Part shown: positions 14,113-59,078 of the stretch, piece by piece | Layout of the letters: each line of letters begins with the position of its first letter | Numbering within the stretch: the stretch's first letter is position 1 | Assembly: GCF_001424045.1 (NCBI RefSeq) | Contig: NZ_LMQB01000023.1 | Location: 620,001 to 684,000 of the forward strand | DNA from: Rhizobium sp. Leaf371 | GTDB lineage: Bacteria; Pseudomonadota; Alphaproteobacteria; Rhizobiales; Rhizobiaceae | Length of the DNA stretch: 64,000 nt | Direction: 5' to 3' | Translations under genes and position numbers: made by a program | Notes under the pieces: generated by a model | Databases searched by the model: none | What the model saw: only the letters and a program-made list of their open reading frames with translations | Told to the model about the DNA's origin: nothing

Positions 14113-14224
14113 GTCATTTCTCCTACTTCACTGTTCCGTGTTCAGCACTCCCTCCGACATGTCTCTGCCGGCCGGTTACAAACAACTTACACAACGCATA
14201 TTTCGAGCGACTTAAAGAAAATCG

Positions 14225-14238
14225 TTACCACGCGGTAA
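14225..14238. promoter_or_regulatory. Small inverted repeat between pilA and the divergent gene
   Basis: TTACC-ACGC-GGTAA, perfect five-base arms, in the 247-bp gap between pilA and the plus-strand secretin-domain gene. It might be an operator for either; it is too short to be sure. Confidence 0.25.
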
Positions 14239-14359
14239 ATGGCGGGAAAATTCTCCGCCGCCTGTCGCCCGCCAAGGCACGCGTGTCGCGGGCCTTTAAG
14301 GCTTCATTCACCAAAAGCGAGGATGGTGGCGCATCGGCATCACCGGATCCTGCACCGCC

Positions 14360-14797: not shown

Positions 14798-14905
14798 ACG
14801 CTCCCTGCCCCATGCGGGCCTTTTCGCACCCTCTTTAGAGCAATATGTCGTCTCGACGTTACGAAGTCGAAACGCTTTCCCGGTAAGCTGCCATTCACGC
14901 AGAAC

Positions 14906-40615: not shown

Positions 40616-40648
40616 GATGGTCTCCTCCTCCCTTGGTCCTGATACGCT

Positions 40649-42748: not shown

Positions 42749-42833
42749 GTCATCCTCCCATGTGATCGGAACCCCTGCGTTGGACGCAGGTCGGCCCCGT
42801 GTTGACGACGATATCGCGCAGGAGACGCTGCCA

Positions 42834-42906
42834 TGTCAATCATATTCGATCATAAATGTTCATTGTGCAGCGCAATATAGAAAATTCTGATCGTTATTGA
42901 TTGACA
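42834..42906. promoter_or_regulatory. Paired inverted sites in the rhaD-rhaR divergent promoter
   Basis: TGTCAATCA at 42834-42842 and its exact complement TGATTGACA at 42898-42906 flank a 55-bp AT-rich core between the two divergent starts. The geometry suits a regulator, probably RhaR, controlling both directions; the assignment is inference. Confidence 0.45.
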
Positions 42907-42948
42907 GCCTCTGCGGAATTCGCATAACTCGCTGTCGAGGAGACATCC

Positions 42949-43761: not shown

Positions 43762-43797
43762 GCGGCCGGGCTTATCGTCAACTGGGAGGAAGACAGC

Positions 43798-44793
43798 ATG
43801 AAACTCGCACAAAAGCTTGCCATCGGGGTGGTGTTCGCCATGGCCGCATTCGGCTCTGCCGCACATGCCGCCGAGGTCAAGATCGGCCTCGTCGTGAAAT
43901 CGCTCGGCAACGGCTTCTTCGAGGCCGCCAACAAGGGCGCGCAGGAAGCGGCCAAAGAACTCGGCGATGTCGAGATCATCTATACCGGCCCGACCAGCAC
44001 CACGGCCGAAGGCCAGATCGAGGTGATCAATGCGCTGATCGCCCAGGGCGTCAACGCCATCGCCATTTCCGCAAATGACCCCGACGCCGTCGTCCCGGCG
44101 CTGAAGAAGGCCGCACAGCGCGGCATCAAGGTCATTTCCTGGGATTCGGGCGTGGCACCCGAAGGCCGCATCCTGCAGCTCAACCCGTCCTCCAACGCGC
44201 TGATCGGCAAGATGTGCCTGCAGCTCGCCAAGGACCATCTGGAAGGCGGCAAGGGCGACTTCGCCATCCTCTCGGCCACGACGACATCCACGAACCAGAA
44301 CATCTGGATCGAGGAAATGAAGAAGCAGCTGAAGGACTTCCCCGGCCTCAACCTCGTCACCACCGTCTATGGCGACGACCTTTCGGACAAGAGCTACCGC
44401 GAAGCGCAAGGCCTGATGACCTCCAATCCGAACGTCAAGGTCATCGTCGCCCCGACCACGGTCGGCGTTCTCGCGGCCTCGCAAGCCGTCAAGGATGCGG
44501 GCAAGATCGGCCAGGTCTATGTGACCGGTCTCGGCCTTCCCTCCGAAATGGCCGGCGCCATCAAGTCCGGCGCGACGAAGGAATTCGCGATCTGGAACCC
44601 GATCGATCTCGGCTACTCCGCCGCCCAGATCGCCTATCACCTCGTCAAGGGCGACACGGACGGTGCGCCGGGCTCGGAAATCGAAGCCGGCCGCATGGGC
44701 AAGATCAAGGTCGGCGAGAACGGCGAAGCCGCCATGGCCGACCCCTTCGTCTACAATGCCGGAAACATCGACCAGTTCTCCAAGGTATTCTGA
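43798..44793 (+). CDS. rhaS: Rhamnose ABC transporter substrate-binding protein RhaS
   Basis: Periplasmic rhamnose-binding protein, 331 residues, type I sugar-binding fold. The signal peptide ends GSAAHAAE near residue 23; the mature part starts VKIGLVVKSLGNGFFEAANKG. GGGAGG precedes the ATG. A hairpin after the gene probably keeps its expression above that of the membrane components. Confidence 0.95.
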   Translation: MKLAQKLAIGVVFAMAAFGSAAHAAEVKIGLVVKSLGNGFFEAANKGAQEAAKELGDVEIIYTGPTSTTAEGQIEVINALIAQGVNAIAISANDPDAVVPALKKAAQRGIKVISWDSGVAPEGRILQLNPSSNALIGKMCLQLAKDHLEGGKGDFAILSATTTSTNQNIWIEEMKKQLKDFPGLNLVTTVYGDDLSDKSYREAQGLMTSNPNVKVIVAPTTVGVLAASQAVKDAGKIGQVYVTGLGLPSEMAGAIKSGATKEFAIWNPIDLGYSAAQIAYHLVKGDTDGAPGSEIEAGRMGKIKVGENGEAAMADPFVYNAGNIDQFSKVF

Positions 44794-44842
44794 GCGAGGC
44801 CTTCTGGCCCGCAAGGATGCCAGGATGACGTGACCAGACAAT

Positions 44843-44868
44843 CCGGCGGCGCCCAAGGGTGCCGCCGG
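44843..44868 (+). terminator. Hairpin between rhaS and rhaT (partial terminator or mRNA stabiliser)
   Basis: Eight perfect pairs CCGGCGGC / GCCGCCGG extended by three inner pairs around a CAAG loop, followed by pyrimidine-rich TCCTCTCTTTCC rather than a pure T run. Such hairpins after binding-protein genes commonly lower expression of downstream transporter genes. Confidence 0.6.
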
Positions 44869-44888
44869 TCCTCTCTTTCCGACCGGAC

Positions 44889-46424
44889 ATGGACATGATG
44901 GCCCTTCAACACCCCGTCGCCGAGGATCGCTTGGCCGTGCCCGCCATTCTGGAAATGCGCGGCATTTCGCAGATCTTTCCGGGCGTCAAGGCGCTCGACG
45001 GCGTCGATATCGCGCTTTATCCGGGCACCGTGACCGCTCTCATCGGCGAGAACGGCGCCGGCAAGTCGACGCTGGTGAAGATCCTGACCGGCATCTACCG
45101 CCCGAGCGAGGGCGAGATCCGGATCGACGGCGCGCCCGTCACCTTTTCCGACGCGCAGGCCGCCATCGACGCCGGCGTGACCGCCATCCACCAGGAAACC
45201 GTGCTCTTCGACGAGCTGACGGTGGCCGAAAACATCTTTCTCGGCCATGCGCCGCGCACGCGGTTCGGAACCATCGACTGGACGCGCATGAACGGGCGGG
45301 CGCGCGATCTCCTGCGCTCGCTCGAAAGCACGATCGAGCCGACGATCCGGCTGAAGGACCTGTCGATCGCGCAGCGCCATCTGGTCGCGATCTCGCGCGC
45401 GCTGTCGATCGAGGCGCGCATCGTCATCATGGACGAGCCGACGGCAGCACTCTCCCGCAAGGAGATCGACGATCTCTTCCGGATCGTGCGCGACCTGAAA
45501 CGCCAGGGCAAAGCCATCCTCTTCATCAGCCACAAGTTCGACGAGGTCTACGAGATCGCCGAGAACTACGTGGTCTTCCGCGACGGCAAGGCGGTGGGAC
45601 ATGGCGCGCTGGCAGCGACGGCGCAGGACGACATCGTCCGCCTGATGGTCGGCCGCACCGTGGCCGACGCCTTTCCGAAGGTCGCGGTGGCACCCGGCGC
45701 GCCGGTGCTCGACGTCTCCGGCTACTGCCATCCGACCGAGTTCCACGATATCTCCTTCACGCTTCACCGCGGCGAGATCCTCGGCATCTACGGGCTCATC
45801 GGCGCCGGGCGCTCGGAACTCTGCCAGTCGCTGTTCGGCATCACGGCGCCGGCGAGCGGCACGGTGCAGATCGAGGGCCGGCCGGTGACGATCCGCTCGC
45901 CGCGCGACGCGATCCGGGCCGGCATCGTCTATGTGCCGGAGGAGCGCGGCCGCCACGGGCTGGCGCTGCCCATGCCGATCTTCCAGAACATGACGCTGCC
46001 CTCGCTCGGTCGGACGTCGCGCGCCGGCTTCCTGCGGCTGGCCGACGAGTTCGCGCTCGCCCGCAAATATGCCGAGCGGCTGGACCTGCGCGCCGCCGCC
46101 CTCTCCGTGCCGGTCGGTACGCTGTCGGGCGGCAACCAGCAGAAGGTGGTCATCGGCAAATGGCTCGCGACGCAGCCGAAGGTGATCATTCTCGACGAGC
46201 CGACCAAGGGCATCGACATCGGCTCCAAGGCCGCCGTTCACGCCTTCATCAGCGAGCTTGCCGCCGAAGGCCTGTCGATCGTGATGATCTCGTCGGAACT
46301 GCCGGAGATTCTCGGCATGTCGGACCGGGTGATGGTGATGAAGGAAGGCCTGTCGGCCGGCATCCATGCGCGTGCCGGGCTGACGCCGGAAATTCTGGTC
46401 CGCGCCGCCACCGGCAACGCGTGA
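44889..46424 (+). CDS. rhaT: Rhamnose ABC transporter ATPase RhaT
   Basis: About 511 residues with two fused ATPase domains. The first has Walker A GENGAGKSTLVK and Walker B RIVIMDEPTAAL; the second has GLIGAGRSELCQ and SGGNQQKVVIGKW with LDEPTKGIDIG. Homology begins near AILEMRGISQIFPG. ATG 44889, 44895 or 44898 could start it; none has a clear ribosome binding site, and a GTG at 44859 is buried in the hairpin. It is unrelated to the RhaT proton symporter of E. coli. Confidence 0.92.
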   Translation: MDMMALQHPVAEDRLAVPAILEMRGISQIFPGVKALDGVDIALYPGTVTALIGENGAGKSTLVKILTGIYRPSEGEIRIDGAPVTFSDAQAAIDAGVTAIHQETVLFDELTVAENIFLGHAPRTRFGTIDWTRMNGRARDLLRSLESTIEPTIRLKDLSIAQRHLVAISRALSIEARIVIMDEPTAALSRKEIDDLFRIVRDLKRQGKAILFISHKFDEVYEIAENYVVFRDGKAVGHGALAATAQDDIVRLMVGRTVADAFPKVAVAPGAPVLDVSGYCHPTEFHDISFTLHRGEILGIYGLIGAGRSELCQSLFGITAPASGTVQIEGRPVTIRSPRDAIRAGIVYVPEERGRHGLALPMPIFQNMTLPSLGRTSRAGFLRLADEFALARKYAERLDLRAAALSVPVGTLSGGNQQKVVIGKWLATQPKVIILDEPTKGIDIGSKAAVHAFISELAAEGLSIVMISSELPEILGMSDRVMVMKEGLSAGIHARAGLTPEILVRAATGNA

Positions 46425-46434
46425 GGAGTACACC

Positions 46435-47448
46435 ATGACCCTTCTGAAGAAACGCGAAACCCTGCTCTTCCTCATCATCGCCCTGATGGTGATCGCCTTT
46501 TCCACGCGCGCGCCCGGCTTCGGGAACCCCCGCAATCTCGCCGTCATCTTCAACGACACCGCCATCCTGATCATCCTGGCGCTGGCGCAGATGACGGTCG
46601 TTCTGACGAAGTCGATCGACCTTTCGGTTGCCGCCAACCTCGCCTTTAGCGGCATGGCGGTGGCGATGCTGAACGCGGCGGTGCCCGGCCTGCCGCTCGT
46701 TCTTCTGATCCTGCTGGCCATCGGCATCGGGGCCGCCCTCGGCGCCATCAACGGCTTTCTCGTCTGGCGGCTCGAAATGCCGCCGATCGTGGTGACGCTG
46801 GGCACGCTGACCATCTATCGCGGCATGGCCTTCGTTCTCTCGGGCGGCGCCTGGGTGAATGCGCACCAGATGACGCCGGAGTTTCTCAACGTGCCCCGGC
46901 TGGCGGTCGCCGGGCTTCCGGTCCTCTCCTGGGTCGCGGTGCTCGTCGTCGTGCTGGTCTATCTGATGGCGCGCTACACGCCCTTCGGCCGCTCGGCCTA
47001 TGCGGCGGGCGGCAATCCCGTGGCCGCCGTCTATGCCGGGATCGATGTGGGCTATACTCGGTTCCTCGCCTTCACGCTGTCGGGCGCGCTTGCCGGTCTC
47101 AGCGGCTATCTCTGGGTGTCGCGCTATGCGGTCGCCTATGTCGACATCGCCATCGGCTTCGAGCTCGACAGCGTCGCGGCCTGCGTCATCGGCGGAATCT
47201 CGATCGCGGGCGGCGTCGGCAGCGTCATCGGCACCGTGCTCGGCGCCCTGTTCCTCGGCGTCATCAAGAACGCGCTTCCGGTCATCGGCATCTCGCCCTT
47301 CACCCAGATGGCGATCTCCGGCTCGGTCATCATTCTCGCCGTCGTGTTCAACGCCCGGCGCGAGCGCAACCGCGGGCGCATCATCCTGCGCAACCGGGCC
47401 GCGGAAGACGGCGGCCCCGACACGATCAACAAGGCGGCCCTGGCATGA
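46435..47448 (+). CDS. rhaP: Rhamnose ABC transporter permease RhaP
   Basis: 337-residue membrane subunit of the carbohydrate-uptake (CUT2/RbsC) type. It has about nine hydrophobic helices, [16 protein letters not shown] near the N-terminus and the [19 protein letters not shown] glycine-rich loop. GAGGAG precedes the ATG. Its stop overlaps the rhaQ start (ATGA). Confidence 0.92.
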
Positions 47449-48473
47449 GCGCGATCCCCTCGACATCTCCCCAGCCCGAACCGTCGCAGCCCGCACGCCG
47501 CGCCATTCCCGACCGGCTGGGCACGCCGCTTCGCCGGCTGCTCGCCAGCTGGGAAGTGCTGCTTCTCGGCGTGGCGGTCGCGATCTTCGTGTTCAATTCG
47601 CTGGCCTCGCCCTATTTTCTCGATGCCTGGAACCTCTCGGACGCCACCTTCAACTTCACCGAAAAGGCGATGATCGCCTTTGCCATGGCGCTGCTGGTGA
47701 TCGCCGGCGAGATCGACCTTTCGGTCGCCGCCATCATCGCGCTCGCCTCGACCGCCATGGGCGCGGCAGCCCAAGCAGGCGTCGGCGCGGCAGGGCTGGT
47801 CGCCATCGGCGTCTGTGTCGGTCTTGCCTGCGGCACCGTCAACGGCGTGCTCGTTTCCGGCATGAAGCTGCCCTCCATCGTCGTGACCATCGGCACGATG
47901 AGCCTGTTTCGCGGCCTCTCCTATATCGTGCTCGGCGACAAGGCCTATGGCGGCTACCCCGCCGACTTCGCCTTCTTCGGGCAGGGCTATGTCGTCTGGG
48001 TGTTTTCGTTCGAGTTCGTGCTGTTCCTCGTGCTGGCCGGCCTCTTCGCCGTGCTCCTGCATGCGACGAATTTCGGGCGGCAGGTCAAGGTGATCGGCAA
48101 CAACGAGTTCGCCGCGCGCTTTTCCGGCATTCCGGTCGAGCGGATCAAGTTCATCCTGTTCCTGCTCACCGGCCTGATGAGCGGCATCGCCGCCGTCTGC
48201 CTCACCTCCCGCCTCGGTTCCACCCGGCCGTCGATCGCGCAGGGATGGGAGCTGGAGGTCGTGACCATGGTGGTGCTCGGCGGCGTCTCCATTCTCGGCG
48301 GCTCCGGCACGATCGGCGGCGTCGTCATCGCCGCCTTCGTCATGGGCCTCGTCACCTTCGGGCTCGGGCTGCTCAACGTGCCGGGCATCGTCATGTCGAT
48401 CTTTATCGGCCTGCTCCTCATCATCACCATCGCGCTGCCGATCCTGGCGCGCCGCATCAAGGCGAGGTCCTGA
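47445..48473 (+). CDS. rhaQ: Rhamnose ABC transporter permease RhaQ
   Basis: 342-residue RbsC-type permease, partner of RhaP. It contains [19 protein letters not shown] and [19 protein letters not shown], the paired signature of this family. Start overlaps rhaP by four bases and its stop overlaps the rhaU start by one base (TGATG). Confidence 0.92.
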
Positions 48474-48814
48474 TGACGCCCGACATGACCCTCGAACGCC
48501 ACGCCTTCGTCATGAAGCTGCATGCGGGCCAGGAGGCGGAATATCGCCGCCGCCACGACGCGATCTGGCCTGAACTGAGCGCGCTGCTCGCGCAGGCCGG
48601 GGTTCGCGACTATTCGATCTTTCTCGACCCGGAGACTCTGACGCTGTTCGGCGTGCTCTCGCGCGCCCGCGACCACCAGATGGCCGCCCTGCCCGAGCAC
48701 CCGGTGATGAAGCGCTGGTGGGCGCATATGGCCGATATCATGCAGACACATCCCGACAATGCGCCGGTGTCGCGCGACCTGATCCCCGTCTTTCATCTGC
48801 CGGAACAGCCATGA
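48473..48814 (+). CDS. rhaU: L-rhamnose mutarotase RhaU
   Basis: Interconverts alpha- and beta-L-rhamnose. 113 residues with the RhaM-family signature [14 protein letters not shown], the central [18 protein letters not shown] and the end [12 protein letters not shown] 48473 has GAGG upstream and overlaps the rhaQ stop; ATG 48485 (MTLERHAF) is an alternative that matches the family length slightly better. In Rhizobium leguminosarum it is needed for growth on rhamnose. Confidence 0.93.
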
Positions 48815-50223
48815 CCCGCAGGACCGATCGGGCGCCGGGCCGGGTCGCCGTCTTCGACGTCGGCAAGACCAATGCCAAGCTCGTCGTCTACGATACGTCC
48901 AGCGGTCGCGAACTCGTATCCCACCGGATGGCGAACCGCGTGATCGGGACGGGCCCCTATCCCCATTACGATACGGATGCGCTCTGGGCGTTCCTCCTCG
49001 CATCGCTCGAGGCGGTGGCGGAGACGCCGGGGTTCGATGCGATCTCCGTCACGACCCATGGTGCAGCCGCCGCCCTTCTCGATGCGCAGGGCGCGCTGGC
49101 GATGCCCGTGCTCGACTACGAGCATGATTATCCTCCGGAGATCCGGGCCGCCTATGACGACCTCCGCCCGGACTTCATCGAAACCTTTTCTCCGAGACTG
49201 GCCATGGGGCTCAACCTCGGCGCCCAGCTGCATTATCAGAAGACCGCGTTTCCTGCGGAATTCGCGCGGGTCCGCACCATCGTCACCTATGCGCAATACT
49301 GGTCCGGCCGGCTCAGCGGCTGCTTTGCGACGGAGGTGACGTCGCTCGGATGCCATACGGATCTCTGGAACCCGGCTCTTTCGCAGTTTTCGAGCTTGGT
49401 CGAGACGCTCGACCTCTCCGGGCTCATGGCGCCGGTACGATCCGGCTTCGACGTGCTGGGGCCGCTTCTTCCACAGCTTGCTATGGACATCGGGCTCGAC
49501 GCGGGCCGGGATGTCCCGGTCCATTGCGGCATCCACGATAGCAACGCCTCGCTGCTGCCGCATCTGATGGTGCGCGAGGCGCCCTTCTCGGTCGTCTCCA
49601 CCGGTACATGGGTCGTCTCCTTCGGCGTCGGCGGCGATCTCGGACAACTCGATCCCGCACGCGACACGCTTGCCAATGTCGATGCCTTCGGCCGCGCGGT
49701 TCCATCGGCACGGTTCATGGGCGGGCGGGAATACGAAATGCTGACGGCCGGACGGGAGACCCTGCAGGCCGGAACCGGCGATGCATCGTCACCCTTGGCG
49801 GTAATGACGCGCGGCATGATGCTTCTGCCATCGGTGGTGACCGGCTGCGGCCCCTTCCCGGCGATGACGGCGGAATGGGTCTCGGCGGAAGGCGCAACGG
49901 ATGACGAGCGCCAGGCGGCGATCTGCCTCTATCTCGCGCTGATGACGCAGGAGAGCCTGCGGCTTCTCGATGCCGGCGGGCCGATCCTGGTCGAAGGACC
50001 GTTTGCGAAGAACGGCCTTTATCTCAGCGCACTCTCCGCCTTTTCCGGCCGGCAGGTGCTGGCGCTGGAGGGCTCGACGGGAACGAGCCTCGGTGCTGCC
50101 CTGCTTGCGGGAAAGGCGGCGCCTGTCGCATCCGCATCCGCCGAGGCGGTGACGCCGCTTGGTCCGTGGGACGAAATCGAGACCTACCGGAAACTCTGGT
50201 CCGCGCGGATCGCGGCCCGATAA
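48811..50223 (+). CDS. rhaK: L-rhamnulose kinase RhaK (FGGY family)
   Basis: 470 residues, FGGY/ASKHA fold. The N-terminal phosphate loop is [30 protein letters not shown] and [14 protein letters not shown] follow; the late [14 protein letters not shown] is the adenosine motif. Start overlaps the rhaU stop by four bases (ATGA). In R. leguminosarum this kinase also affects function of the rhamnose transporter. Last gene of the operon. Confidence 0.94.
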
Positions 50224-51067: not shown

Positions 51068-51973
51068 CTAGCGCCTTTCCTCCGTGTCGCCAAGAGCCAG
51101 CGCCCGCCGCAGGCTTTGTCCGGCCCGATCGAGACGCTGCTGCGCGGTGGCGCGATCCGGGACGCCCGAGGCGAGGAGGACGGCGAGCTTGACGGAGCCG
51201 CCAGCCACTTCGAGATGGCGCACGGCCTCAAGCGGATCGACGGAGGCGATAGCGGCCACCATGCGGGTGGCGCGCTGGCGCAGCTTTGCATTGTCGGGCC
51301 GAAGATTGACCATATGGCCATCATGGACATGGCCGAGCCCGATGCCGACAAGGGTGGAAATCATGTTGAGCGCGATCTTCTGGGCGGTGCCCGCGCCCAG
51401 GCGCGTCGAGCCGGAAATCACCTCGGGCGGCGTTTCCAGCAGCACGGCGACATCGGCCATCTCGAACAGCCGCGCGCCGGGATTGTTGGCAATGGCCACG
51501 ATGGTGGCGCCGCCCTCCCGCGCCGCCTGCGCGCAACCGAGCGCATAGGGTGTCCCGCCGCTGGCGGAGACGATGAGGATGCAATCCCCGGCACCGACGC
51601 CCGCCTGCTCGGTGTCGCGCACGCCAAGGTCGCGATCATCCTCATAGCCGCCCGTAAGATCGGCAAGGCTCGCCGTGCCGCCGGCGAGGAGAACGACGAC
51701 CGAAGGCTGTGCGAGACCGTATGTGCCCGGCAGTTCGAGCGCATCGACCATGGCCATCAGCCCGGAACTGCCGGCACCGGCATAGACGAGGCGGCCACCG
51801 CTTCCCAGCGCCTCGGTGGCGAGAGACGCCGCCCGCGCCAGCGGCTCGATGGCCGCATCGACCGCGCGCGCCGCGGCCTGCTGGCCTTCCGCCAGAAGCT
51901 TCAGGATCGCGACTGGCTCCCGCGTATCGAGATCCTGTGCTTGCGCATGGCCCTCTTCCGTCCTGTTCGCCAC
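51068..51973 (-). CDS. murQ: N-acetylmuramic acid 6-phosphate etherase
   Basis: Removes D-lactate from MurNAc-6-P, giving GlcNAc-6-P in peptidoglycan recycling. The SIS-domain protein has 301 residues with VYAGAGSSGLMAMVDALELPG, GGYEDDRDLG, IVSASGGTPYALG and LRPDNAKLRQRA, all MurQ features. The start is a GTG with GGGAGG six bases upstream. It is divergent from the kinase-regulator-nagA operon across a 201-bp promoter region. Confidence 0.95.
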   Translation of the reverse strand: MANRTEEGHAQAQDLDTREPVAILKLLAEGQQAAARAVDAAIEPLARAASLATEALGSGGRLVYAGAGSSGLMAMVDALELPGTYGLAQPSVVVLLAGGTASLADLTGGYEDDRDLGVRDTEQAGVGAGDCILIVSASGGTPYALGCAQAAREGGATIVAIANNPGARLFEMADVAVLLETPPEVISGSTRLGAGTAQKIALNMISTLVGIGLGHVHDGHMVNLRPDNAKLRQRATRMVAAIASVDPLEAVRHLEVAGGSVKLAVLLASGVPDRATAQQRLDRAGQSLRRALALGDTEERR

Positions 51974-52001
51974 GCGACCCTCCCTGCATCACAAGTCCAA
52001 A

Positions 52002-52157
52002 TGAATACCAATAGGCCACCGGAAATCAAGAGCGTCGCGTCAATCCAAAGCGCAATGCAGAATCCCAAGCGGCTAGCCTGATGAATTTACCCGATAAAAG
52101 TGGCTTTCCACATTTTGTTGATTTTCGTCTTGGTAAATGGTCCTTTTTTGGTATTAT
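52002..52157. promoter_or_regulatory. Divergent murQ / kinase promoter with inverted TTGGTATT elements
   Basis: TTGGTATTCAT on the minus strand (52002-52012) and TTGGTATTAT on the plus strand (52148-52157) face opposite directions, each near a gene start. A further TTGGTAAATGGTCC lies at 52130-52143. These may be operators for the GntR-type regulator encoded downstream, or promoter elements. Confidence 0.35.
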
Positions 52158-52174
52158 CGGGCCGGAGGTTTTCC

Positions 52175-53074
52175 ATGGGTCTTTATCGTGTCGGAATCGA
52201 TGGTGGCGGGACGCGGTGCCGGGCAGCGGTGGCCGGCGCGGACGGCCGTCTTCTCGGGCGCGGCATCAGCGGTGCTGCCAATATCCTGACCGATCCGGAA
52301 ACAGCGCTGGCCCATATCCGGCTGGCGACGGAAGCGGCTTTCCAGGAGGCGGGGCTTCCCATGTCGGCGATCGCCTCGGCGTCCGCCGTCCTTGGTCTCG
52401 CCGGCAACAATGTGGCCGAGGCCGTGTCGTTCATCGCCGGGCGTCTCCCGTTTGCGCGAGCGCAGATCGTGTCCGACGTCGTGATCGCGCTGCAGGGCGC
52501 GCTCGGCGACCGGGATGGCGCGGTGGCAAGTCTCGGAACGGGCACCGTCTACAGCATTCGGCAAAAGGGCGGGATCTCCATGCTCGGCGGTCACGGCTTC
52601 AAGGTGGGCGATCTTGGCAGCGGCGCGCGGCTGGGGCAAGGCCTTCTGCAGGAAGCGCTGCTCGCCCATGACGGCATTCGCCCGTCCTCTTCCCTGACCG
52701 AGACGGTGCTTGCGGCGTTCGGCCACTCGACGGCGGCCATCATCGCCTTTGCCCATACCGCGCATCCGGCCGATTACGGCCGCTACGCGCCGAGCATTTT
52801 TTCGGCCGCCGACGCAGGCGATGCCGTCGCGATCGACCTCGTGCGGGCGGCTGCGCAGCGGATCGACCAGACGCTCGACGCCATCGTCGCCCGCGGCGTC
52901 GAAACTGTCTGCCTCGTCGGCGGGCTCGCGCCGCTCTACAGGCCCTGGCTGGCCGAGCGGCCCGGCATCGCGTTCGCCGAACCGCGCGCAGACGCGCTGA
53001 CGGGAGCCGTGGCACTGGCGGTCCAGGGCTTGCCCACGGACACGTCTTCGAAACAGGTGGAGGCGACGCAATGA
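52175..53074 (+). CDS. BadF-family amino-sugar kinase (GlcNAc or MurNAc kinase)
   Basis: 299-residue ASKHA kinase of the BadF/BadG/BcrA/BcrD group. It starts MGLYRVGIDGGGTRCRAAVAG, with LGTGTVYSIRQ and GHGFKVGDLGSGARLG further on. GGAGG precedes ATG 52175. Members of this family phosphorylate GlcNAc at C6, and the clostridial MurK next to murQ uses MurNAc as well, so this enzyme probably supplies MurNAc-6-P to MurQ and GlcNAc-6-P to NagA. Its stop overlaps the regulator start (ATGA). Confidence 0.9.
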   Translation: MGLYRVGIDGGGTRCRAAVAGADGRLLGRGISGAANILTDPETALAHIRLATEAAFQEAGLPMSAIASASAVLGLAGNNVAEAVSFIAGRLPFARAQIVSDVVIALQGALGDRDGAVASLGTGTVYSIRQKGGISMLGGHGFKVGDLGSGARLGQGLLQEALLAHDGIRPSSSLTETVLAAFGHSTAAIIAFAHTAHPADYGRYAPSIFSAADAGDAVAIDLVRAAAQRIDQTLDAIVARGVETVCLVGGLAPLYRPWLAERPGIAFAEPRADALTGAVALAVQGLPTDTSSKQVEATQ

Positions 53075-53835
53075 GCGATCACCTGGCGCATCTCCTGCCG
53101 CTCGAAGGCCTGCAGGGCGCGGGGGCCGGGCCCCTGTATCTCAAGCTGCGCCAGTCTCTCGAAGAGGCGATCCAGTCGGGGAAGCTCAACCATGGCGACG
53201 CGCTGCCGCCGGAGCGCGACCTTGCCGAATATGCCCAGATCAGCCGGGTCACCGTGCGGAAAGCCGTGGACGATCTCGTGCGCGACGGGCTTCTCGTGCG
53301 CCGTCACGGCTCCGGCACCTTCGTCGTCAAGCCGCTGGCGCGCGTGCAGCAATCCCTTTCGCGCCTCACCTCCTTCACCGAGGACATGGCGCGGCGCGGG
53401 CTGACCACGCGGGCCCAATGGATCGAGCGGGGGCTTTTTGCCGCCTCGCCGGACGAGATGATGACGCTCGGCCTGCCGGCCGACGCGCTCGTCGCGCGGC
53501 TCGGGCGGCTGCGGATCGCCGACGACATGCCGCTTGCCATCGAGCGGGCCAGCATCTCGGCGGAATTTCTGCCCGATCCGATGCGGGTCACGACCTCGCT
53601 CTATGCCGAACTCGACACGTCGCACGCCCGCCCGGTGCGCGCGGTGCAGCGGATCTCGGCCTGCGGGCTGAAGGATCCGGACGCCGCGATGCTGGGCGTT
53701 GCCAGCGGGTCGGCCAGCCTGTCGATCGAGCGCATCTCCTATCTGGCCTCCGGCCGCGTGGTGGAGTTCACCCGTTCGCTCTATCGCGGCGATGCCTATG
53801 ATTTCGTGGCTGAACTCAGCCTTTCCGACACCTGA
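53071..53835 (+). CDS. GntR-family regulator with UTRA domain (NagR/HutC type)
   Basis: 254 residues. The N-terminal winged helix has LPPERDLAEYAQISRVTVRKAVDDLVRDGLL (quoted in part) and the HGSGTFV wing; the C-terminal UTRA effector domain contains RLGRLRIADDMPLAIERASI and ends in VVEFTRSLYRGDAYDF. NagR/DasR proteins of this type bind GlcN-6-P or GlcNAc-6-P, matching the pathway. Translationally coupled to the kinase gene. Confidence 0.93.
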   Translation: MSDHLAHLLPLEGLQGAGAGPLYLKLRQSLEEAIQSGKLNHGDALPPERDLAEYAQISRVTVRKAVDDLVRDGLLVRRHGSGTFVVKPLARVQQSLSRLTSFTEDMARRGLTTRAQWIERGLFAASPDEMMTLGLPADALVARLGRLRIADDMPLAIERASISAEFLPDPMRVTTSLYAELDTSHARPVRAVQRISACGLKDPDAAMLGVASGSASLSIERISYLASGRVVEFTRSLYRGDAYDFVAELSLSDT

Positions 53836-53876
53836 AGCGGCTCCACGCGAAGACGGCCTTTAAGGACATGCACGAC

Positions 53877-54908
53877 ATGACGACCGACCAGACCCATATG
53901 CGCCGCGAGATCAACGAGATCCCGGAAGCTGCCGCCCGTCTTCTCGAAGGGTCCCGCAATGCGCTCGATGCCGCGGGTGCGGCACTGGCCGCGCACGATC
54001 CGGCCTTCCTGGTGACCATTGCCCGCGGTTCGTCCGACCATGCCGCCCTGTTCCTGAAATATGCGATCGAACTGACCACGGGGCGCCCCGTCGCCTCGCT
54101 CGGGCCGTCGCTCGCCTCGATCTACGGCGCGAAGATGGCGCTTTCCGGCGCCGGCTCGATCGCCATTTCGCAATCCGGCAAGAGCCCGGACATCGTTGCC
54201 ATGGCCGAGGCCGCAACCAAGGCCGGCGCCGTTACCATTGCGCTCACCAATACGCTGCCCTCGCCGATCGCCGAAGCGAGCACCCATCCGGTGCATATCA
54301 TGGCCGGCCCGGAGATCGCCGTCGCCGCGACCAAATCCTATGTCAACTCGATCATCGCCGGTCTCGCCGTTCTCGCGGCCTGGACGAAGGATGCGGCCCT
54401 CGACCGCGCGGTGCGCGAGCTGCCCACCCATCTTGCCCGTGCCGTGACGCTCGACTGGAGCGCGCTGTTCGACGGGATCGGAACGTCGGATTCGCTCTAT
54501 GTGCTCGGCCGCGGACCGGCGCTCGCCATCGCCAGCGAAGCCGCCCTGAAGTTCAAGGAAACGTCCGGTCTGCATGCCGAGGCCTATTCTGCAGCCGAGG
54601 TGCTGCACGGGCCGGTGGCGCTCGTGGAGAAACGCTTTCCGGTTCTGGGTCTCGCCGCGCGTGACGCAGCCGAGGCCTCCGTCACCGGCATTCTCGACGA
54701 TCTCGCCGGCAAGGGCGCGCGGGCCTTCCTGACCGCGGACGCCCATGGCCGCGCAGCACCTTTGCCCTTCGTTGCGACCGGACATCCGCTGACCGACGCG
54801 CTCTGCCTCATCCTCCCCTTCTACGGCTTCGTGGAGGCATGGTCGCGCGCCAAGGGCTTCAACCCCGATCAGCCGGCAGCGCTGAAGAAAGTGACGGAAA
54901 CGCGATGA
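53877..54908 (+). CDS. SIS-domain glucosamine-6-phosphate deaminase (NagB-II type)
   Basis: 343 residues with two SIS domains and no glutaminase domain: VTIARGSSDHAALFLKYAIE with ISQSGKSPDIVAMAEAA, then YVLGRGPALAIASEAALKFKE with AAEVLHGP. This architecture matches NagB-II, which turns GlcN-6-P into fructose-6-P and ammonia, rather than GlmS. Start ATG 53877 (MTTDQTHMRREI) fits the AAGGA ten bases upstream; ATG 53868 abuts that motif. Stop overlaps the nagA start. Confidence 0.88.
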   Translation: MTTDQTHMRREINEIPEAAARLLEGSRNALDAAGAALAAHDPAFLVTIARGSSDHAALFLKYAIELTTGRPVASLGPSLASIYGAKMALSGAGSIAISQSGKSPDIVAMAEAATKAGAVTIALTNTLPSPIAEASTHPVHIMAGPEIAVAATKSYVNSIIAGLAVLAAWTKDAALDRAVRELPTHLARAVTLDWSALFDGIGTSDSLYVLGRGPALAIASEAALKFKETSGLHAEAYSAAEVLHGPVALVEKRFPVLGLAARDAAEASVTGILDDLAGKGARAFLTADAHGRAAPLPFVATGHPLTDALCLILPFYGFVEAWSRAKGFNPDQPAALKKVTETR

Positions 54909-56080
54909 ACGCACAGCGCGACGACACGGCCTTCGCCGTTACCGGTGCCCGGATCTTCGACGGGCAGGACTGGCATGCCGGACAGGCGCTCCTCGTCGGC
55001 GCCGGCGTCGTGACCGGCATCGTCGCGCTGGAGGCGCTGCCGGAGGGAATCGAAACGGTTTCCGCCAAGGGGCAGATCCTGGTGCCCGGCTTCATCGACC
55101 TGCAGGTCAATGGCGGCGGCGGCGCGCTGCTCAACGATGCGCCGAGCGTCGATGTGATCCGCACGATCTGCGCCGCGCATGCGCGCTTCGGCACGACGGC
55201 TCTTCTGCCGACGCTCATCACCGATACGCCGGATGTGCGCAGCCTTGCGATATCGGCCGCGCGCGAGGCGCGGGCTGCAGGCGTTCCCGGTTTCATCGGC
55301 TTGCACCTCGAAGGCCCGCATCTGTCGGTCGCGCGCAAGGGCGTCCATGACCCCGATCTGATCCGGCCGATGGAGGCCGACGATCTCGACGTCATCCTCG
55401 CCTGCGCTTCGCTGTTCGATGCCGTCATGGTCACGGTGGCGCCCGAGAATGCGACGCTGGAACAGGTGGCGGCCATGAGCAAGGCCGGCATCACCGTCAG
55501 CCTCGGCCACACGGCTGCCGACTACGAGACGGTGGCGACCTATGCGCTGGCCGGCGCGCGCACCGTGACCCATCTCTTCAACGCCATGAGCCCGCTCGGA
55601 CATCGCGAGCCCGGCTGCGTCGGCGCGGCGCTCGATCTGGGCACGCTGCATGCCGGGATCATCGCCGACGGGTTTCACGTCGATCCGGTGTCGATGGGCA
55701 TCGCGTTGCGGGCAAAGGTCGGGCCGGGCCGCATCTTTCTGGTCACCGACGCCATGTCGACCATCGGCTCGGACCAGACCAGATTTCTGCTCAACGGGCG
55801 CGAGATCTTTCGCCGCGAGGGCCGGCTGACGCTGGTCGACGGGACGCTGGCCGGTGCCGACATCGACATGCTGTCCTCCGTCCGCTTCGTGCACCGGACG
55901 CTCGACCTGCCGCTCGGCGAGGCGATCCGGATGGCATCCGCCTATCCCGCCGACGCGATCGGCCTTTCGGCCGTCAAGGGTCGGCTTCTGCCGGGGCTCG
56001 ATGCGGACTTCGTTCTGCTGACGGACGATCTCGACATGGTCGCGACCTATATCGGCGGCCATGCCGTGTTTTCGGCCTGA
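54905..56080 (+). CDS. nagA: N-acetylglucosamine-6-phosphate deacetylase
   Basis: Amidohydrolase of 391 residues that makes GlcN-6-P. Metal and catalytic segments are present: DLQVNGGGGALLND, GLHLEGPHLSVARKG, SLGHTAADYE, THLFNAMSPLGHREPG and FLVTDAMSTIG. ATG 54905 overlaps the deaminase stop by four bases (ATGA), so the substrate-linked pair is co-translated. Last gene of the plus-strand operon; convergent with cutC. Confidence 0.95.
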   Translation: MNAQRDDTAFAVTGARIFDGQDWHAGQALLVGAGVVTGIVALEALPEGIETVSAKGQILVPGFIDLQVNGGGGALLNDAPSVDVIRTICAAHARFGTTALLPTLITDTPDVRSLAISAAREARAAGVPGFIGLHLEGPHLSVARKGVHDPDLIRPMEADDLDVILACASLFDAVMVTVAPENATLEQVAAMSKAGITVSLGHTAADYETVATYALAGARTVTHLFNAMSPLGHREPGCVGAALDLGTLHAGIIADGFHVDPVSMGIALRAKVGPGRIFLVTDAMSTIGSDQTRFLLNGREIFRREGRLTLVDGTLAGADIDMLSSVRFVHRTLDLPLGEAIRMASAYPADAIGLSAVKGRLLPGLDADFVLLTDDLDMVATYIGGHAVFSA

Positions 56081-56095
56081 GGCAGCGATTTTCGG

Positions 56096-56809
56096 TCAGA
56101 GCGCGGCCTTCAGTGCCCGGACGACAGCGGCATCGGTCCGCCGCGCGGCCTCAGGCGCAAAGCCGAGGTCCACGAGGCGGCGGTCGGCTGTCGGAACCGA
56201 GACCGAACAGGAGGCGTGAACCTCGCGGACGCTGGTGGCGAGCACAGGCCCGACGGTCGAGAGCGTGACGCCGGAGCCCGGCATGATCGACAGGCGCCCA
56301 TCTGCCCTGCGGACAAGATCCGCAATGGCCGCGATGCCGTTTGCGGCCGTCGTCTCGCCGCCCGAGGTGAGAATGCGCTCAAAGCCGAGATCGATCGCCG
56401 TCTCCAGCGCGGCCGCCTGATCCGGCACGAGATCGAAGGCGCGGTGGAGGGTGCGTCCCAAGCCATTCGCGCGCTGCGCGAGACGGGCGAGCCCGGCGGC
56501 ATCGAGGGTGCGGTCGCCAAGGCTTGCGCCAAGAACCACGCCGGCCAGACCGGCCTGCCGTGCGGCATCGATCTCCGCTTCCATCATGGCGATCTCGGTC
56601 TCGTCAAAGACGAAATCGCCGGCACGCGGACGGATCATCGCATAGACCGGCACGGACATGCGGCCGGCGAGCCGCATGAGACCGGCCGACGGCGTCAGGC
56701 CGCCGAGCGCCAAAGCGGAGCAGAGCTCGATCCGGTCGGCGCCGCCGTCCACCGCGGCCACGAGACCCGCGGCGTCATCAACGCAGACTTCGAGCAGAAC
56801 GGGGCTCAT
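56096..56809 (-). CDS. cutC: CutC-family TIM-barrel protein
   Basis: 237 residues with the CutC pattern: LLEVCVDDAAGLVAAVDGGADRIELCSAL (quoted in part), GGLTPSAGLM, YAMIRPRAGDF, LHRAFDLV and ILTSGGETTAANG. The family was named for copper tolerance in E. coli, but that role is disputed and the conserved pocket looks enzymatic. Here its start overlaps the stop of a ROK kinase gene within an amino-sugar locus, which argues for a sugar-linked role. No copper gene is nearby. Confidence 0.93.
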   Translation of the reverse strand: MSPVLLEVCVDDAAGLVAAVDGGADRIELCSALALGGLTPSAGLMRLAGRMSVPVYAMIRPRAGDFVFDETEIAMMEAEIDAARQAGLAGVVLGASLGDRTLDAAGLARLAQRANGLGRTLHRAFDLVPDQAAALETAIDLGFERILTSGGETTAANGIAAIADLVRRADGRLSIMPGSGVTLSTVGPVLATSVREVHASCSVSVPTADRRLVDLGFAPEAARRTDAAVVRALKAAL

Positions 56810-57717
56810 CGGTCATCTCCCGTGAGTGCGAGCAGGGCAGCACCGATCAGGCCGGGTTCGATCCGGCATTCTCCCGGCACGACCAGCGGACGATCGAACT
56901 TGCGCAGAATGCGGGTGCGGACGGTCCGGTCGATCGCCTCGATCAGCGATGTGACGCCCGACAGGCCGCCGCCGACGGGCACGATGGTCGCACCGGTGAT
57001 GTTGATCGCGAGCGCCAAAGGCGAGGAAACAAGATCGACCAGCACCTCGATGGTGCGGGCGGCGTCCGGATCGCCGGCCTGCCAGCGCGCGGTGATGTCG
57101 TGGCTCGGCAGCGTCTCCTTGTGAAGCGCCTGGTGAAGCCGCTCCATGCCGCGCGCGGCACCGATCGTGTCGACGCAGCCGCTCTGACCGCAGCCGCAGG
57201 CAAAGGCGGGAATGGCGACCGGCGGGTTTCCGGCCGTAGCGGCGACGGCCGGGCCATGGCCCCATTCGCCGGCAAAGCCGCCCTGGCCGTTGATCAGCCG
57301 TCCATTGGCGACAAGACCGCCACCGACGCCCGTGCCGAGAATGACACCGAAGACGATGCGGTGTCCGCGTCCGGCACCGAGCCCGGCTTCGGCGAGCGCG
57401 AAGCAATCCGCATCATTGGCGATCAGGACCGGCATCTGAAGTCGGTTGCCCAGATCGCGGGCAAGCGGCCGCTGGTCGAGGCAGGGAATATTCGCGACCG
57501 TGATGGCCTGCGTCTCCGGATCGACCACGCCGGCAATCGACAGGGCGATGCGCTCCGGCCGGATGCCGGCCTCGGCGAAGGCATCCTCCAGCGCGGCGAC
57601 GAAGGCATCGAAATCGTGCAGCGGCGTCGGCCGGCGTGTCAGCGGACGAATGTCGTCCGGCGAGGTGGCGACGGCACCCTTGATGGCGGAACCGCCGATG
57701 TCGAAACAGACGATCAT
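56806..57717 (-). CDS. ROK-family sugar kinase (GlcNAc/ManNAc or glucokinase-like)
   Basis: 303 residues. Phosphate loop CFDIGGSAIKGAVA at the N-terminus, ANDADCFALAEAGLGAGRGHR, the GGGLVANGRLINGQGGFAGEWGH ROK region (quoted in part), and the zinc-binding CGCGQSGCV are all present. Operon neighbours suggest an N-acetylhexosamine substrate, which would make it a second amino-sugar kinase beside the BadF-type one. Overlaps both the amidase stop and the cutC start by four bases. Confidence 0.93.
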   Translation of the reverse strand: MIVCFDIGGSAIKGAVATSPDDIRPLTRRPTPLHDFDAFVAALEDAFAEAGIRPERIALSIAGVVDPETQAITVANIPCLDQRPLARDLGNRLQMPVLIANDADCFALAEAGLGAGRGHRIVFGVILGTGVGGGLVANGRLINGQGGFAGEWGHGPAVAATAGNPPVAIPAFACGCGQSGCVDTIGAARGMERLHQALHKETLPSHDITARWQAGDPDAARTIEVLVDLVSSPLALAINITGATIVPVGGGLSGVTSLIEAIDRTVRTRILRKFDRPLVVPGECRIEPGLIGAALLALTGDDR

Positions 57718-59078
57718 GCCTCACCCCTTATGATGTGTTCGGCCGCGAGCGCGACCGACAGGAGCCTGCGATCTTCCCCCTGCGGCGCCGAGAGAAGGAA
57801 ACCGGCCGGCATGCCGGCATCGCCCGTTCCGCAGGGGATGGAGATGCCGCAGCCATCGAGGAAGTTGCCGACCAGCGTGTTGCGCAGCGTCCGGAAATTC
57901 GTCTCCACGAACAGCGCGTCGTCTGCCAGAAGCGGCGCGATCGGCGGAGCGACGTGGGGCAGCGTCGGGTGGGCGAGCAGGTCGCGCGGGCCGAGCATGC
58001 CGGAAAAGGCGGCGATCATCTTTCGGCGAGCGGCGGTCAGGGCGATATAGTCGGCCATGGCCGTCTTCTCGCCCATGCGCGTGCGGACCACGACGCGTGG
58101 GTCCATCCTTTCCGCATCCGGCCCCGCGAGCCGCTCGCGATGAAGCGCGAAGGCTTCGGCGGTCACGAGAGCGCCATGACGGGCAAAGAGCTCGAAGATC
58201 TCGGCAAAGAGCGGCACCGGCCGGTGCTCGATACGCGCCCCGGCAGCGGCAAGACGCGCGAGCGCTGCCTCGAAAGCCGCGACGACGCCGGGCTCCGCTC
58301 CATCGAACATCACGGTCTGCGGCACGACGAGCGTCAGCCCGTCCACCTCGCCGCGGCCAGCCTCTGGCACGCTCACGCCGCGCATGGCGGCATCGACCCA
58401 GACGGCATCCTGCACCGTCCGGCAGAGGGGCCCGAGCGAATCGAGGCTTGCGGCCAAGGGAAAGACGCCGTCCATGGCATAACGGCCGCGCGTTGCCTTA
58501 TAGCCGACGATGCCGTTGAGGGCTGCGGGAATGCGGATGGAGCCGCCCGTGTCGGTGCCGATCGCAACCGGCACGAGGCCGGACGCCACGGCCACGGCCG
58601 AGCCGGAGGAAGAGCCACCGGGAATGCGCGGCACGTCGGTGGAGGCCGCATTGGCGGGCGTGCCGTAATGCGGGTTGATGCCGAGGCCGGAAAAGGCGAA
58701 TTCGCTCATATTGGTCCGCCCGACGGCCACCATGCCGGCAGCGGCAAGTGCTGCGACGACGGCGGCGTCCTTCGTCGCCGGCCCTTCGTCGAGCACGACC
58801 GAGCCCGCCCGGGTGACGGCACCTTCCGTGTCGAACAGGTCCTTCCAGGCGACGGGGATGCCATCGAGAAGACCGCGCGAACGGCCGGCTCCCAAGCGCA
58901 GACGCGCGGCCTCGGCCTCCCGCAACGCACGTGGCCCGAGAACCTCGGTAAAGATCGCCGGGTCGGCCGCGGCGATCCGGTCGAGCACCGCTTCCGTCAG
59001 CGCGACCGGGTCGAGCGCACCGTTCTGGAGGAGCACGGCAAGGCTGGCGACGGAGAGATCCGTCCGGATATCGTTCAT
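57714..59078 (-). CDS. Amidase-signature family hydrolase
   Basis: 454 residues. The Ser-cisSer-Lys triad can be placed: Lys in IPVAWKDLFDTEGA, and the serines in the signature PGGSSSGSAVAVASG followed by GTDTGGSIRIPA. Family members hydrolyse amides from indoleacetamide to allophanate, and form GatA; this one lacks the GatB/GatC partners nearby, so it is not tRNA amidotransferase. It leads a coupled operon with the ROK kinase and cutC, which suggests an amide-bearing sugar or peptide substrate; that is inference. Confidence 0.85.
   Translation of the reverse strand: MNDIRTDLSVASLAVLLQNGALDPVALTEAVLDRIAAADPAIFTEVLGPRALREAEAARLRLGAGRSRGLLDGIPVAWKDLFDTEGAVTRAGSVVLDEGPATKDAAVVAALAAAGMVAVGRTNMSEFAFSGLGINPHYGTPANAASTDVPRIPGGSSSGSAVAVASGLVPVAIGTDTGGSIRIPAALNGIVGYKATRGRYAMDGVFPLAASLDSLGPLCRTVQDAVWVDAAMRGVSVPEAGRGEVDGLTLVVPQTVMFDGAEPGVVAAFEAALARLAAAGARIEHRPVPLFAEIFELFARHGALVTAEAFALHRERLAGPDAERMDPRVVVRTRMGEKTAMADYIALTAARRKMIAAFSGMLGPRDLLAHPTLPHVAPPIAPLLADDALFVETNFRTLRNTLVGNFLDGCGISIPCGTGDAGMPAGFLLSAPQGEDRRLLSVALAAEHIIRGEA

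Follow-up and report, generated by a model that had tools for sequence, protein, structure and literature searches.

An amidase-ROK kinase-CutC operon beside nag genes in Rhizobium sp. Leaf371 and a candidate role for CutC in the catabolism of amide-linked N-acetylglucosamine

In Rhizobium sp. Leaf371, genes for an amidase-signature (AS) amidase, a ROK family sugar kinase and a CutC family protein form a compact operon next to N-acetylglucosamine (GlcNAc) catabolic genes, and in a survey of cutC loci the gene is recurrently linked with ROK kinases, glycosylasparaginase-class genes, N-glycan glycosidases and nag genes. CutC occurs from bacteria to humans and its function is unsettled; its neighborhoods indicate the end of N-glycoprotein breakdown, and CutC at these loci is likely to serve GlcNAc or N-glycan catabolism. 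The genes concerned lie as follows within the window, i.e., the whole 64,000-nucleotide stretch that was analyzed (contig NZ_LMQB01000023.1, positions 620,001 to 684,000).

51068 to 51973, minus strand: murQ, MurNAc-6-phosphate etherase (NF003915, 313.7 bits against a cut-off of 168)
52175 to 53074, plus strand: nagK, BadF-type GlcNAc kinase (NF046058, 7.9e-57, under cut-off)
53071 to 53835, plus strand: GntR-UTRA transcriptional regulator (PF00392, PF07702)
53868 to 54908, plus strand: nagB-II type SIS-domain glucosamine-6-phosphate deaminase (PF01380, 4.2e-28)
54905 to 56080, plus strand: nagA, GlcNAc-6-phosphate deacetylase (TIGR00221, 293.9 bits against a cut-off of 225.65)
56096 to 56809, minus strand: cutC, CutC family TIM barrel, 237 aa (PF03932, 1.6e-67)
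56806 to 57717, minus strand: ROK family sugar kinase, 303 aa (PF00480, 3.1e-52)
57714 to 59078, minus strand: AS amidase, 454 aa (PF01425, 7.3e-79; NF004766)

The open reading frame coordinates bear out the sequence-only reading that the amidase, ROK and cutC genes have four bases in common at each junction (57714-57717 and 56806-56809) and converge on nagA, with 15 bases between the ends of nagA and cutC. Amidase-ROK-cutC is also seen beside nagA-nagB-GntR in other Rhizobiaceae and, since the same arrangement recurs there, the order is not due to chance. In the annotated record of Sinorhizobium meliloti pSymB the same operon is present, with an IS element separating cutC from nagA. The adjoining plus-strand operon is of the same type as the NagK-NagB-II-NagA pathway (NCBIfam models named SO3507 and SO3506), but its NagK and NagB-II fall under the curated cut-offs of those models; NF046058 is the sole NCBIfam match of nagK, whose start was set at ATG 52175 from the sequence, and the best NCBIfam model for the nagB-II gene is NF046059 NagB-II (1.8e-80, under cut-off). 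Since this operon has its own kinase, the ROK kinase is an extra one. Its best NCBIfam model is the PRK13310 GlcNAc kinase (186.8 bits, missing the NagK equivalog cut-off of 380), and its top PDB match is N-acetyl-D-glucosamine kinase 7p7i (2.5e-44). The amidase passes the NF004766 (PRK06102) cut-off with 696 against 559 bits. No glycoside hydrolase was found among the nine window proteins scanned by profile.

We surveyed 109 non-redundant cutC stretches of 5 to 20 kb each, calling neighbors by profiles made for this work. The coupling of cutC to a kinase and an amidase proved wide for ROK, which took the -1 slot at 28 of the 109 loci, every time on cutC's strand, and narrower for the AS amidase, found at -2 in 10 of 109, the same number that hold the full triplet. 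At any other upstream offset ROK occurred at most three times, and at +1 to +8 never. The AS amidase is restricted to Rhizobiaceae-type loci, and the pairing of ROK with CutC extends further. A glycosylasparaginase-class gene occupied -1 in 14 of 109 loci (12 on the same strand) and +1 in one. NagA lay at -1 in 4 and at +1 in 10 of 109, GH20 at -3 in 7 of 109 and GH2 at +1 in 5, while M81 was at -2 in 8 of 109, yet also at -8 in 5. By Pfam, the 87 same-strand genes at -1 comprised 27 ROK, 12 Asparaginase_2, 9 MFS and 4 Amidohydro_1 and, more rarely, GH20 (2), GH29 (1) and GH85 (1). The earlier proposal that cutC belongs with amino-sugar catabolism is thus upheld: glycosylasparaginase-class, GH20, GH92, GH2 or nag genes occurred within three genes of cutC in 44 of 109 loci; when the six positions lying six to eight genes away were counted instead, the same five kinds turned up in 5 of 109. 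With ten marker families, the counts were 66 and 16 of 109 or, after removal of the 29 loci found via similarity to the window's CutC, 46 and 10 of 80. The ten families were absent within three genes of cutC in 43 of 109 loci, some of which are gene-calling misses (e.g., L043, where ROK was detected otherwise); these marker-less loci include some that carry YecM and several consecutive conserved genes.

The nag genes of the window are flanked by murQ and a BadF-type kinase, and murQ travels with the cluster in other Rhizobiaceae too. Both facts would suit cell-wall recycling in the window, in which the amidase acts on a muropeptide or other amide and ROK on MurNAc or GlcNAc, followed by MurQ and NagA. 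We consider this improbable, given that 9 of 11 MurQ matches within eight genes of cutC are at +5, in the Rhizobiaceae type, that ROK-CutC and glycosylasparaginase-CutC links exist without MurQ, and that AS amidases are not known to act as muramyl-L-alanine amidases.

The sequence-only reading had also held that finding cutC mainly beside copper genes elsewhere would count against it. In a crude test, with regular expressions for P-type ATPase, HMA and multicopper-oxidase motifs, copper-type motifs were found in just 2 of the 109 stretches (one CPx P-type ATPase motif, one multicopper-oxidase-like motif). That CutC is a homeostasis protein for copper or another metal, its position here being incidental, is therefore very improbable. 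It is favored by the family name, by two widespread cysteines (C30, 94%, and C9, 81% conserved in 108 CutC sequences), by the copper-type ATPase motif lying two genes from cutC at L113 and by the suggestion, in the accessible text of PMC4993169, that the CutC of Syn3.0 may bind zinc. In the same 108 sequences conservation of CutC peaks at Glu, Arg, His, Asp and Gly residues rather than at Cys, which argues against it. In addition, the E. coli cutC region holds the promoter of a small RNA, MicL, that targets lpp (PMC8216713, excerpted text, citing Guo 2014), and this would confound cutC mutant phenotypes, again to the detriment of the copper explanation.

Glycosylasparaginase is the enzyme that cuts GlcNAc-Asn; an E. 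faecalis locus encoding one was reportedly described by Combret in 2024. We compared two PF01112 neighbors of cutC with structures: that at L143 matched Elizabethkingia glycosylasparaginase at 7e-120 (best isoaspartyl peptidase chain, 1.6e-36) and that at L075 matched glycosylasparaginase at 3.2e-36 (best L-asparaginase chain, 1.5e-26), and so, as judged from these matches, both are of glycosylasparaginase type. The proposed amide cleavage step fits, since at other cutC loci the neighboring slot is held by a glycosylasparaginase-class gene. Genome co-occurrence, in counts for which the Fisher tests ignore phylogeny, points the same way: in Bacteroidota a glycosylasparaginase-class gene is present in 33 of 34 genomes with cutC against 24 of 84 without it (pairs at most 1 kb apart in 14 of 34), and in Pseudomonadota cutC is present in 18 of 24 genomes with such a gene against 51 of 374 others. 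Among N-glycan loci of Bacteroidota, a Hymenobacter tibetensis plasmid carries GH92, ROK, glycosylasparaginase directly before cutC, NagB, GH18 and SusC. Elsewhere, Loktanella and Peteryoungia have GH20-M81-MFS-CutC, and a Kozakia locus has nagA, ROK, CutC, GH20 and nagB. H. volaticus offers a further named cutC locus supporting the link. Unlike these Bacteroidota loci and the Xanthomonas nix/nag clusters, the window's own genome (98.97% complete) gave no PF01112 (Asparaginase_2) match; there, the AS amidase occupies the equivalent slot.

It might instead be that the three genes are co-transcribed, the amidase serving an unrelated nitrogen source and the pathway being common to ROK and CutC alone. 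Of 22 NF004766 matches over cut-off, 14 lie away from cutC and 8 adjoin it, and an ABC transporter ATPase is found within five genes of the amidase in 5 of 10 of these stretches away from cutC (those of the 14 in which the amidase was called; in 4 it was uncalled). In the amidase tree, nag-linked members form no clade cleanly apart from the others. We nevertheless regard this alternative as somewhat unlikely, because the amidase sits inside the operon at 10 of the 109 loci, because one genome keeps an amidase convergent with nagA while its ROK-cutC pair is elsewhere (L184 and L071), and because possession of such an amidase and possession of cutC go together (13 of 23 against 8 of 78).

We infer that the operon may be a catabolic branch for GlcNAc whose amide-linked partner is an amino acid or some small molecule. 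A GlcNAc amide is, by a modest preference, the probable substrate, and the likeliest one would be GlcNAc-Asn (aspartylglucosamine), the stub remaining from N-glycoprotein breakdown. The AS amidase would cleave the amide bond, freeing the acid together with 1-amino-GlcNAc, a glycosylamine; CutC would hydrolyze the C1-amine, on either the free sugar or the 6-phosphate, to GlcNAc or GlcNAc-6-phosphate and ammonia; the ROK kinase, before or after CutC, would supply the 6-phosphate, and the adjoining NagA and NagB-II would lead to fructose-6-phosphate. The order in the sequence-only reading, with CutC following the kinase and acting on a sugar phosphate, is thus one of the possible orders. We see the complete branch, with CutC acting on the released glycosylamine, as evenly poised, and advance glycosylamine hydrolysis as the CutC reaction only tentatively.

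The closest comparison is the alf-2 cluster of Lactobacillus casei (AsnA2, SugK; PMC6960285, accessible text), in which GlcNAc-Asn amide cleavage and a ROK GlcNAc kinase are likewise combined, with a GntR regulator, to feed GlcNAc catabolism, and where use of Fuc-GlcNAc-Asn requires both glycosylasparaginase and kinase. The window operon similarly holds an amidohydrolase and a ROK kinase in one cluster, but the amidohydrolase family differs, an AS amidase replacing glycosylasparaginase, and CutC is added; the alf-2 genes given in that text include no CutC. Its authors state that 1-amino-GlcNAc cannot be metabolized and is unstable under acidic conditions, and propose that it decays non-enzymatically, which leaves room for an enzyme where the cytoplasm is neutral. 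If the proposed branch is correct, it would supply an enzyme for this step. Neither the literature matches listed, from a collection with few subscription journals, nor the excerpts consulted gave CutC a role in GlcNAc-Asn breakdown; nearest is a predicted Xanthomonas nix/nag network joining VirK with CutC, NixI and an asparaginase (PMC5700972, in the text available).

Several observations count against the proposed branch, besides the 43 loci lacking all ten marker families and the many amidase family members away from cutC. Five gammaproteobacterial and Bacteroidota glycosylasparaginases that we inspected have an N-terminus resembling a twin-arginine signal, so the amide would there be cut outside the cytoplasm, and no signal was seen in the CutC proteins inspected. 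The Syn3.0 minimal cell retains a cutC (PMC4993169), and N-glycan use is not obvious in this cell. On a Parabacteroides plasmid, cutC adjoins ATP synthase and efflux genes. On two Embleya (Actinomycetota) plasmids the profiles detected no glycosylasparaginase-class, nag or glycosidase gene, just ROK and ABC ATPase matches more than 3 kb from cutC, and on one Persicobacter plasmid they detected cutC alone.

The cutC product is predicted to be a TIM barrel (AlphaFold2, pLDDT 96.7). The best Foldseek matches of the model were the human, Shigella, B. anthracis and S. agalactiae CutC proteins, with query-normalized TM-scores of 0.79-0.95 to solved CutC chains, and the fold is common to 3iwp (human), 1twd (Shigella), 4r9x and 2bdq. 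These entries carry a copper homeostasis annotation, and the titles examined name no catalytic function. With the PRK11572 equivalog the window's CutC scored 167 bits, missing the cut-off of 311. R26, E28, R60, H122, D126 and H198 are each at least 99% conserved in the 108 sequences (E7, 94%), recur when the human and Shigella proteins are aligned, and sit in the model within or directly after barrel strands, a pattern that looks like that of an enzyme. A class I (Schiff-base) aldolase, an idea from DERA-like Foldseek matches, was set aside because no Lys was conserved at 80% or more in these sequences. Comparison with a viral structure library gave nothing informative.

As an enzyme, CutC could also epimerize or isomerize GlcNAc or GlcNAc-6-phosphate, or act on it as a mutarotase, much as NanE does beside NanK, with the amidase serving the entry of a different amide. 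A ROK kinase together with a TIM-barrel enzyme resembles the nanK-nanE pair, and the nearest non-CutC Foldseek folds include enzymes of sugar phosphates, MfnB MJ1099 and deoxyribose-phosphate aldolases. CutC also matched NanE (PF04131) weakly, at a probability of 28.7 when hhalign was run against a NanE profile of three rows; on this weak match, CutC as NanE itself was not favored. We judge a NanE-like role unlikely, since the 50 Foldseek matches listed contain no NanE chain, five of the six congeners examined encode a complete NanE at another site in addition to cutC, N-glycan trimming is not known to yield ManNAc, and such a role does not account for the glycosylasparaginase link. The hydrolase proposal can be extended, doubtfully, to the family as a whole, every CutC acting on 1-amino-GlcNAc or its 6-phosphate after cleavage of the N-linked GlcNAc amide. 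If so, human CUTC, which has the same conserved residues, would process cytosolic glycosylamines from N-glycan release, and naming any CutC after copper would be a mistake.

As to regulation, TGGTNTAGACCA is a DasR/NagR-like operator, and it had no match across the nag region. Two other candidate sites were predicted from the letters of the window.

52000 to 52011, minus strand: second TTGGTATT half-site
52148 to 52159, plus strand: TTGGTATT half-site upstream of nagK, possible GntR site

The six matches of TTGGTATT in the window are within chance, as 12 of 100 shuffles reach that number. A poor TTGGTATT half-site precedes the amidase.

The sequence-only reading had described three overlapping minus-strand genes that converge on nagA, and both their coordinates and the overlaps, with 4 bases in common at the amidase/ROK and at the ROK/cutC junction, were confirmed. 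Pfam assignments were unambiguous for all three:

56096-56809, minus strand, cutC (Pfam CutC)
56806-57717, minus strand, ROK kinase (Pfam ROK)
57714-59078, minus strand, amidase (Pfam Amidase)

Beside the operon, the plus strand carries nagK (BadF type), a GntR-UTRA regulator gene, nagB-II (SIS) and nagA, with 15 bases between the end of nagA and cutC; murQ lies upstream of these nag genes in divergent orientation. Inverted TTGGTATT half-sites at 52000-52011 and 52148-52159, between murQ and nagK, are possible operators of the GntR protein. The closest CutC among named genomes was that of Ferranicluibacter rubi (86% identity). The amidase-ROK-cutC order by nag genes is also present in other Rhizobiaceae, and the annotated record of Sinorhizobium meliloti pSymB shows the same order with an IS element separating cutC from nagA. 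Elsewhere in the window, the translated frames at 39323-50223 look like a cluster for rhamnose catabolism, with an isomerase, an aldolase-dehydrogenase, a DeoR-type regulator, an ABC transporter, a mutarotase and a kinase.

The CutC family (PF03932) was present in 8 of 289 genomes sampled from the window's class, 23 of 101 relatives, 69 of 398 Pseudomonadota and 34 of 118 Bacteroidota, the last including G745 (the centre of the draw, its cutC known beforehand) and G782 (whose match is split in two and contains stops). For neighborhood analysis, a similarity search with the window's CutC supplied 38 cutC loci in named genomes, and 86 further stretches, mostly ~20 kb, were added from relatives, Pseudomonadota (40 of the 69 cutC genomes, picked for family spread, and 5 more via another fetch) and Bacteroidota (20 of the 34). 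Our own gene caller called cutC in 123 of 125 sequences, the window among them, and removal of CutC proteins ≥80% identical left 109 loci; since 29 of these stem from the similarity search, the set is weighted to Rhizobiales.

Neighbors were counted by gene slot, upstream (-) or downstream (+) of cutC and regardless of strand, with profiles built from the surveyed loci. ROK was at -1 in 28 of 109 loci, every one on cutC's strand, with ≤3 at any other upstream offset and 0 from +1 to +8. The AS amidase was at -2 in 10. Genes of the glycosylasparaginase class occupied -1 in 14 loci (12 on the same strand) and +1 in 1. Also found were M81 peptidase (8 at -2, 5 at -8), GH20 (7 at -3), GH2 (5 at +1) and NagA (4 at -1, 10 at +1). 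At least one of ten marker families (these seven, GH92, NagB-II and NagK) lay ≤3 genes from cutC in 66/109 loci, versus 16/109 in the six slots at offsets 6-8. With ROK, amidase and M81 dropped, the figures were 44/109 and 5/109; without loci from the similarity search, 46/80 and 10; and where every offset was present (38 loci), 25 and 8. None of the ten lay this close in 43/109 loci, some of which reflect missed gene calls, as at L043, where ROK was seen on separate inspection. An independent Pfam tally gave, for 87 same-strand -1 genes, ROK (27), Asparaginase_2 (12), MFS (9), Amidohydro_1 (4), GH20 (2), and GH29, GH85 and M81 (1 each); for 69 at -2, Amidase (10), M81 (8), glucokinase (3) and Asparaginase_2 (2); and for 53 at +1, GH2 mannosidase-type domains (5). 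A conserved GH20-M81 peptidase-MFS-CutC operon with an RpiR regulator was observed at L041, L046, L047, L049, L052, L157 and L162, and the MlrC-like M81 protein may add a third, unrelated amide-cutting enzyme to those adjoining cutC. At L070 (~10321-15147), genes for a lyase, two CoA-transferase subunits and a thiolase precede ROK-cutC; this catabolic operon looks unrelated.

Glycosylasparaginase, which cuts GlcNAc-Asn, was the best PDB chain for both PF01112 neighbors compared (L143, 7e-120 vs 1.6e-36 for the best other; L075, 3.2e-36 vs 1.5e-26). With these two as a check, we applied our own rule, assigning to the class those matches that begin at ~23-33 and extend into the far part of the PF01112 profile; matches beginning at 1-3 were taken as isoaspartyl-peptidase type, and pieces beginning at 171-176 or near 251, the second halves of split matches, were excluded. 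In Bacteroidota the class occurred in 33/34 cutC genomes vs 24/84 others (Fisher 1.3e-12, relatedness ignored), with the two genes ≤1 kb apart in 14/34 pairs (~0.03 expected). In Pseudomonadota, leaving out partial matches in G620 and G558, cutC occurred in 18/24 class genomes vs 51/374 others (Fisher 1.5e-10, relatedness ignored), and match coordinates placed the genes ≤2.5 kb apart in ten pairs. A PF01112 search of the window's own genome gave 0 matches.

From 62 plasmid records with a CutC match, 17 of 30 listed were examined, annotated ones being favored. Nine of the ten annotated records, S. meliloti among them, had related genes around cutC; in the tenth, from Parabacteroides, the neighbors were ATP synthase and efflux genes. 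Six of the seven unannotated plasmids (all except L168) were scanned with profiles.

Gene content around cutC on plasmids (source in brackets)
Loktanella, Peteryoungia: RpiR-SDR-GH20-M81-MFS-CutC (record annotation)
Sphingomonas: CutC-GntR-SIS-NagA (record annotation)
Hymenobacter tibetensis: N(4)-(beta-N-acetylglucosaminyl)-L-asparaginase immediately before CutC; GH92, ROK, NagB, GH18, SusC nearby (record annotation)
H. volaticus: N(4)-(beta-N-acetylglucosaminyl)-L-asparaginase immediately before CutC (record annotation)
Asticcacaulis: BadF-type kinase and GH2 gene nearby (record annotation)
Palleronia: ROK protein, M81, two ABC ATPases (one oligopeptide type) nearby (record annotation)
Kozakia: nagA, ROK, GH20, nagB nearby (record annotation)
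Novosphingobium: glycosylasparaginase class, GH92, NagB, NagA and cutC in 16.7 kb (profile scan)
Photobacterium: GH20 adjoining (profile scan)
Persicobacter, one of two: GH92 ~3.3 kb away (profile scan)

The profile scan found no marker near cutC on the other Persicobacter plasmid, and only ROK and ABC ATPase matches, >3 kb from cutC, on two Embleya plasmids.

The alf-2 pathway of Lactobacillus casei depends on a glycosylasparaginase together with a ROK kinase that has GlcNAc kinase activity; the 1-amino-GlcNAc formed between the two steps is described as converted non-enzymatically, as labile at acidic pH and as not metabolizable in itself (PMC6960285). The operon differs from this known GlcNAc-amide pathway in having an AS amidase for the glycosylasparaginase and CutC as an extra member. 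We propose that CutC would perform the 1-amino-GlcNAc conversion where the cytoplasm is not acid, that the AS amidase would substitute for the absent glycosylasparaginase, and that the ROK step could come either before or after that of CutC. The short amino-sugar pathway first suggested is supported in part and narrowed to catabolism of GlcNAc amides (N-glycan stubs); the role of CutC itself is a proposal, and is the testable part of the pathway. In Xanthomonas, a predicted interaction network joins VirK with CutC, NixI and asparaginase; the available portion of that paper terms NixI and asparaginase N-glycan-catalysis related and gives CutC no such role (PMC5700972). A complication for the CutC mechanism is that, by eye, the N-termini of five gammaproteobacterial or Bacteroidota glycosylasparaginases (L143, L066, L103, L136, L138) resemble a twin-arginine signal (RRxFL), whereas four CutC proteins inspected, like the alphaproteobacterial glycosylasparaginases L075 and L093, show no such signal.

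Among 108 CutC sequences, R26, E28, R60, H122, D126 and H198 were ≥99% conserved and E7 94%, and all seven are also kept in human and Shigella CutC. The cysteines C30 and C9 reached 94% and 81%, and no lysine reached 80%. In the predicted model (pLDDT 96.7) the conserved residues lie in or just past barrel strands, with D126 placed on a short helix that follows strand 5, and the closest folds beyond the CutC family were MfnB and deoxyribose-phosphate aldolases. NanE genes of relatives at L174, L176 and L178 lie in ~525-residue open frames, longer than NanE alone, and are perhaps NanE-kinase fusions.

With regard to the disputed copper role, no copper family was among the 25 families listed in each Pfam tally (-1, -2 and +1). 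In motif searches, one cutC (L113) had a CPx P-type ATPase motif in its vicinity and a second (L103) a multicopper-oxidase-like motif; both loci also carry a glycosylasparaginase-class gene. In E. coli, the small RNA MicL, which targets lpp mRNA, has its promoter inside the cutC region, and this confounds cutC deletion phenotypes (PMC8216713, citing Guo 2014). The CutC of Syn3.0 is described as without a cysteine thought essential for copper, with zinc suggested instead (PMC4993169); its retention in this minimal cell points to a role broader than N-glycan food, perhaps, we infer, the disposal of unwanted glycosylamines.

The window's amidase is a member of NF004766, with members over the cut-off in 21/101 relatives. 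This type tracks cutC among relatives (13/23 cutC genomes vs 8/78 others), and 8 of 22 matches adjoin it. Since the family is not tied to cutC and nag-linked amidases were not cleanly apart from others in the amidase tree, the amidase substrate is the weakest link. The 14 matches away from cutC were fetched, and the amidase gene was called in 10, 5 of which had an ABC transporter ATPase ≤5 genes away. In one genome (G303), nagA-nagB converge with an amidase gene that stands alone (L184), and ROK-cutC lies at a separate place (L071), as if the amidase-ROK-cutC operon had been split.
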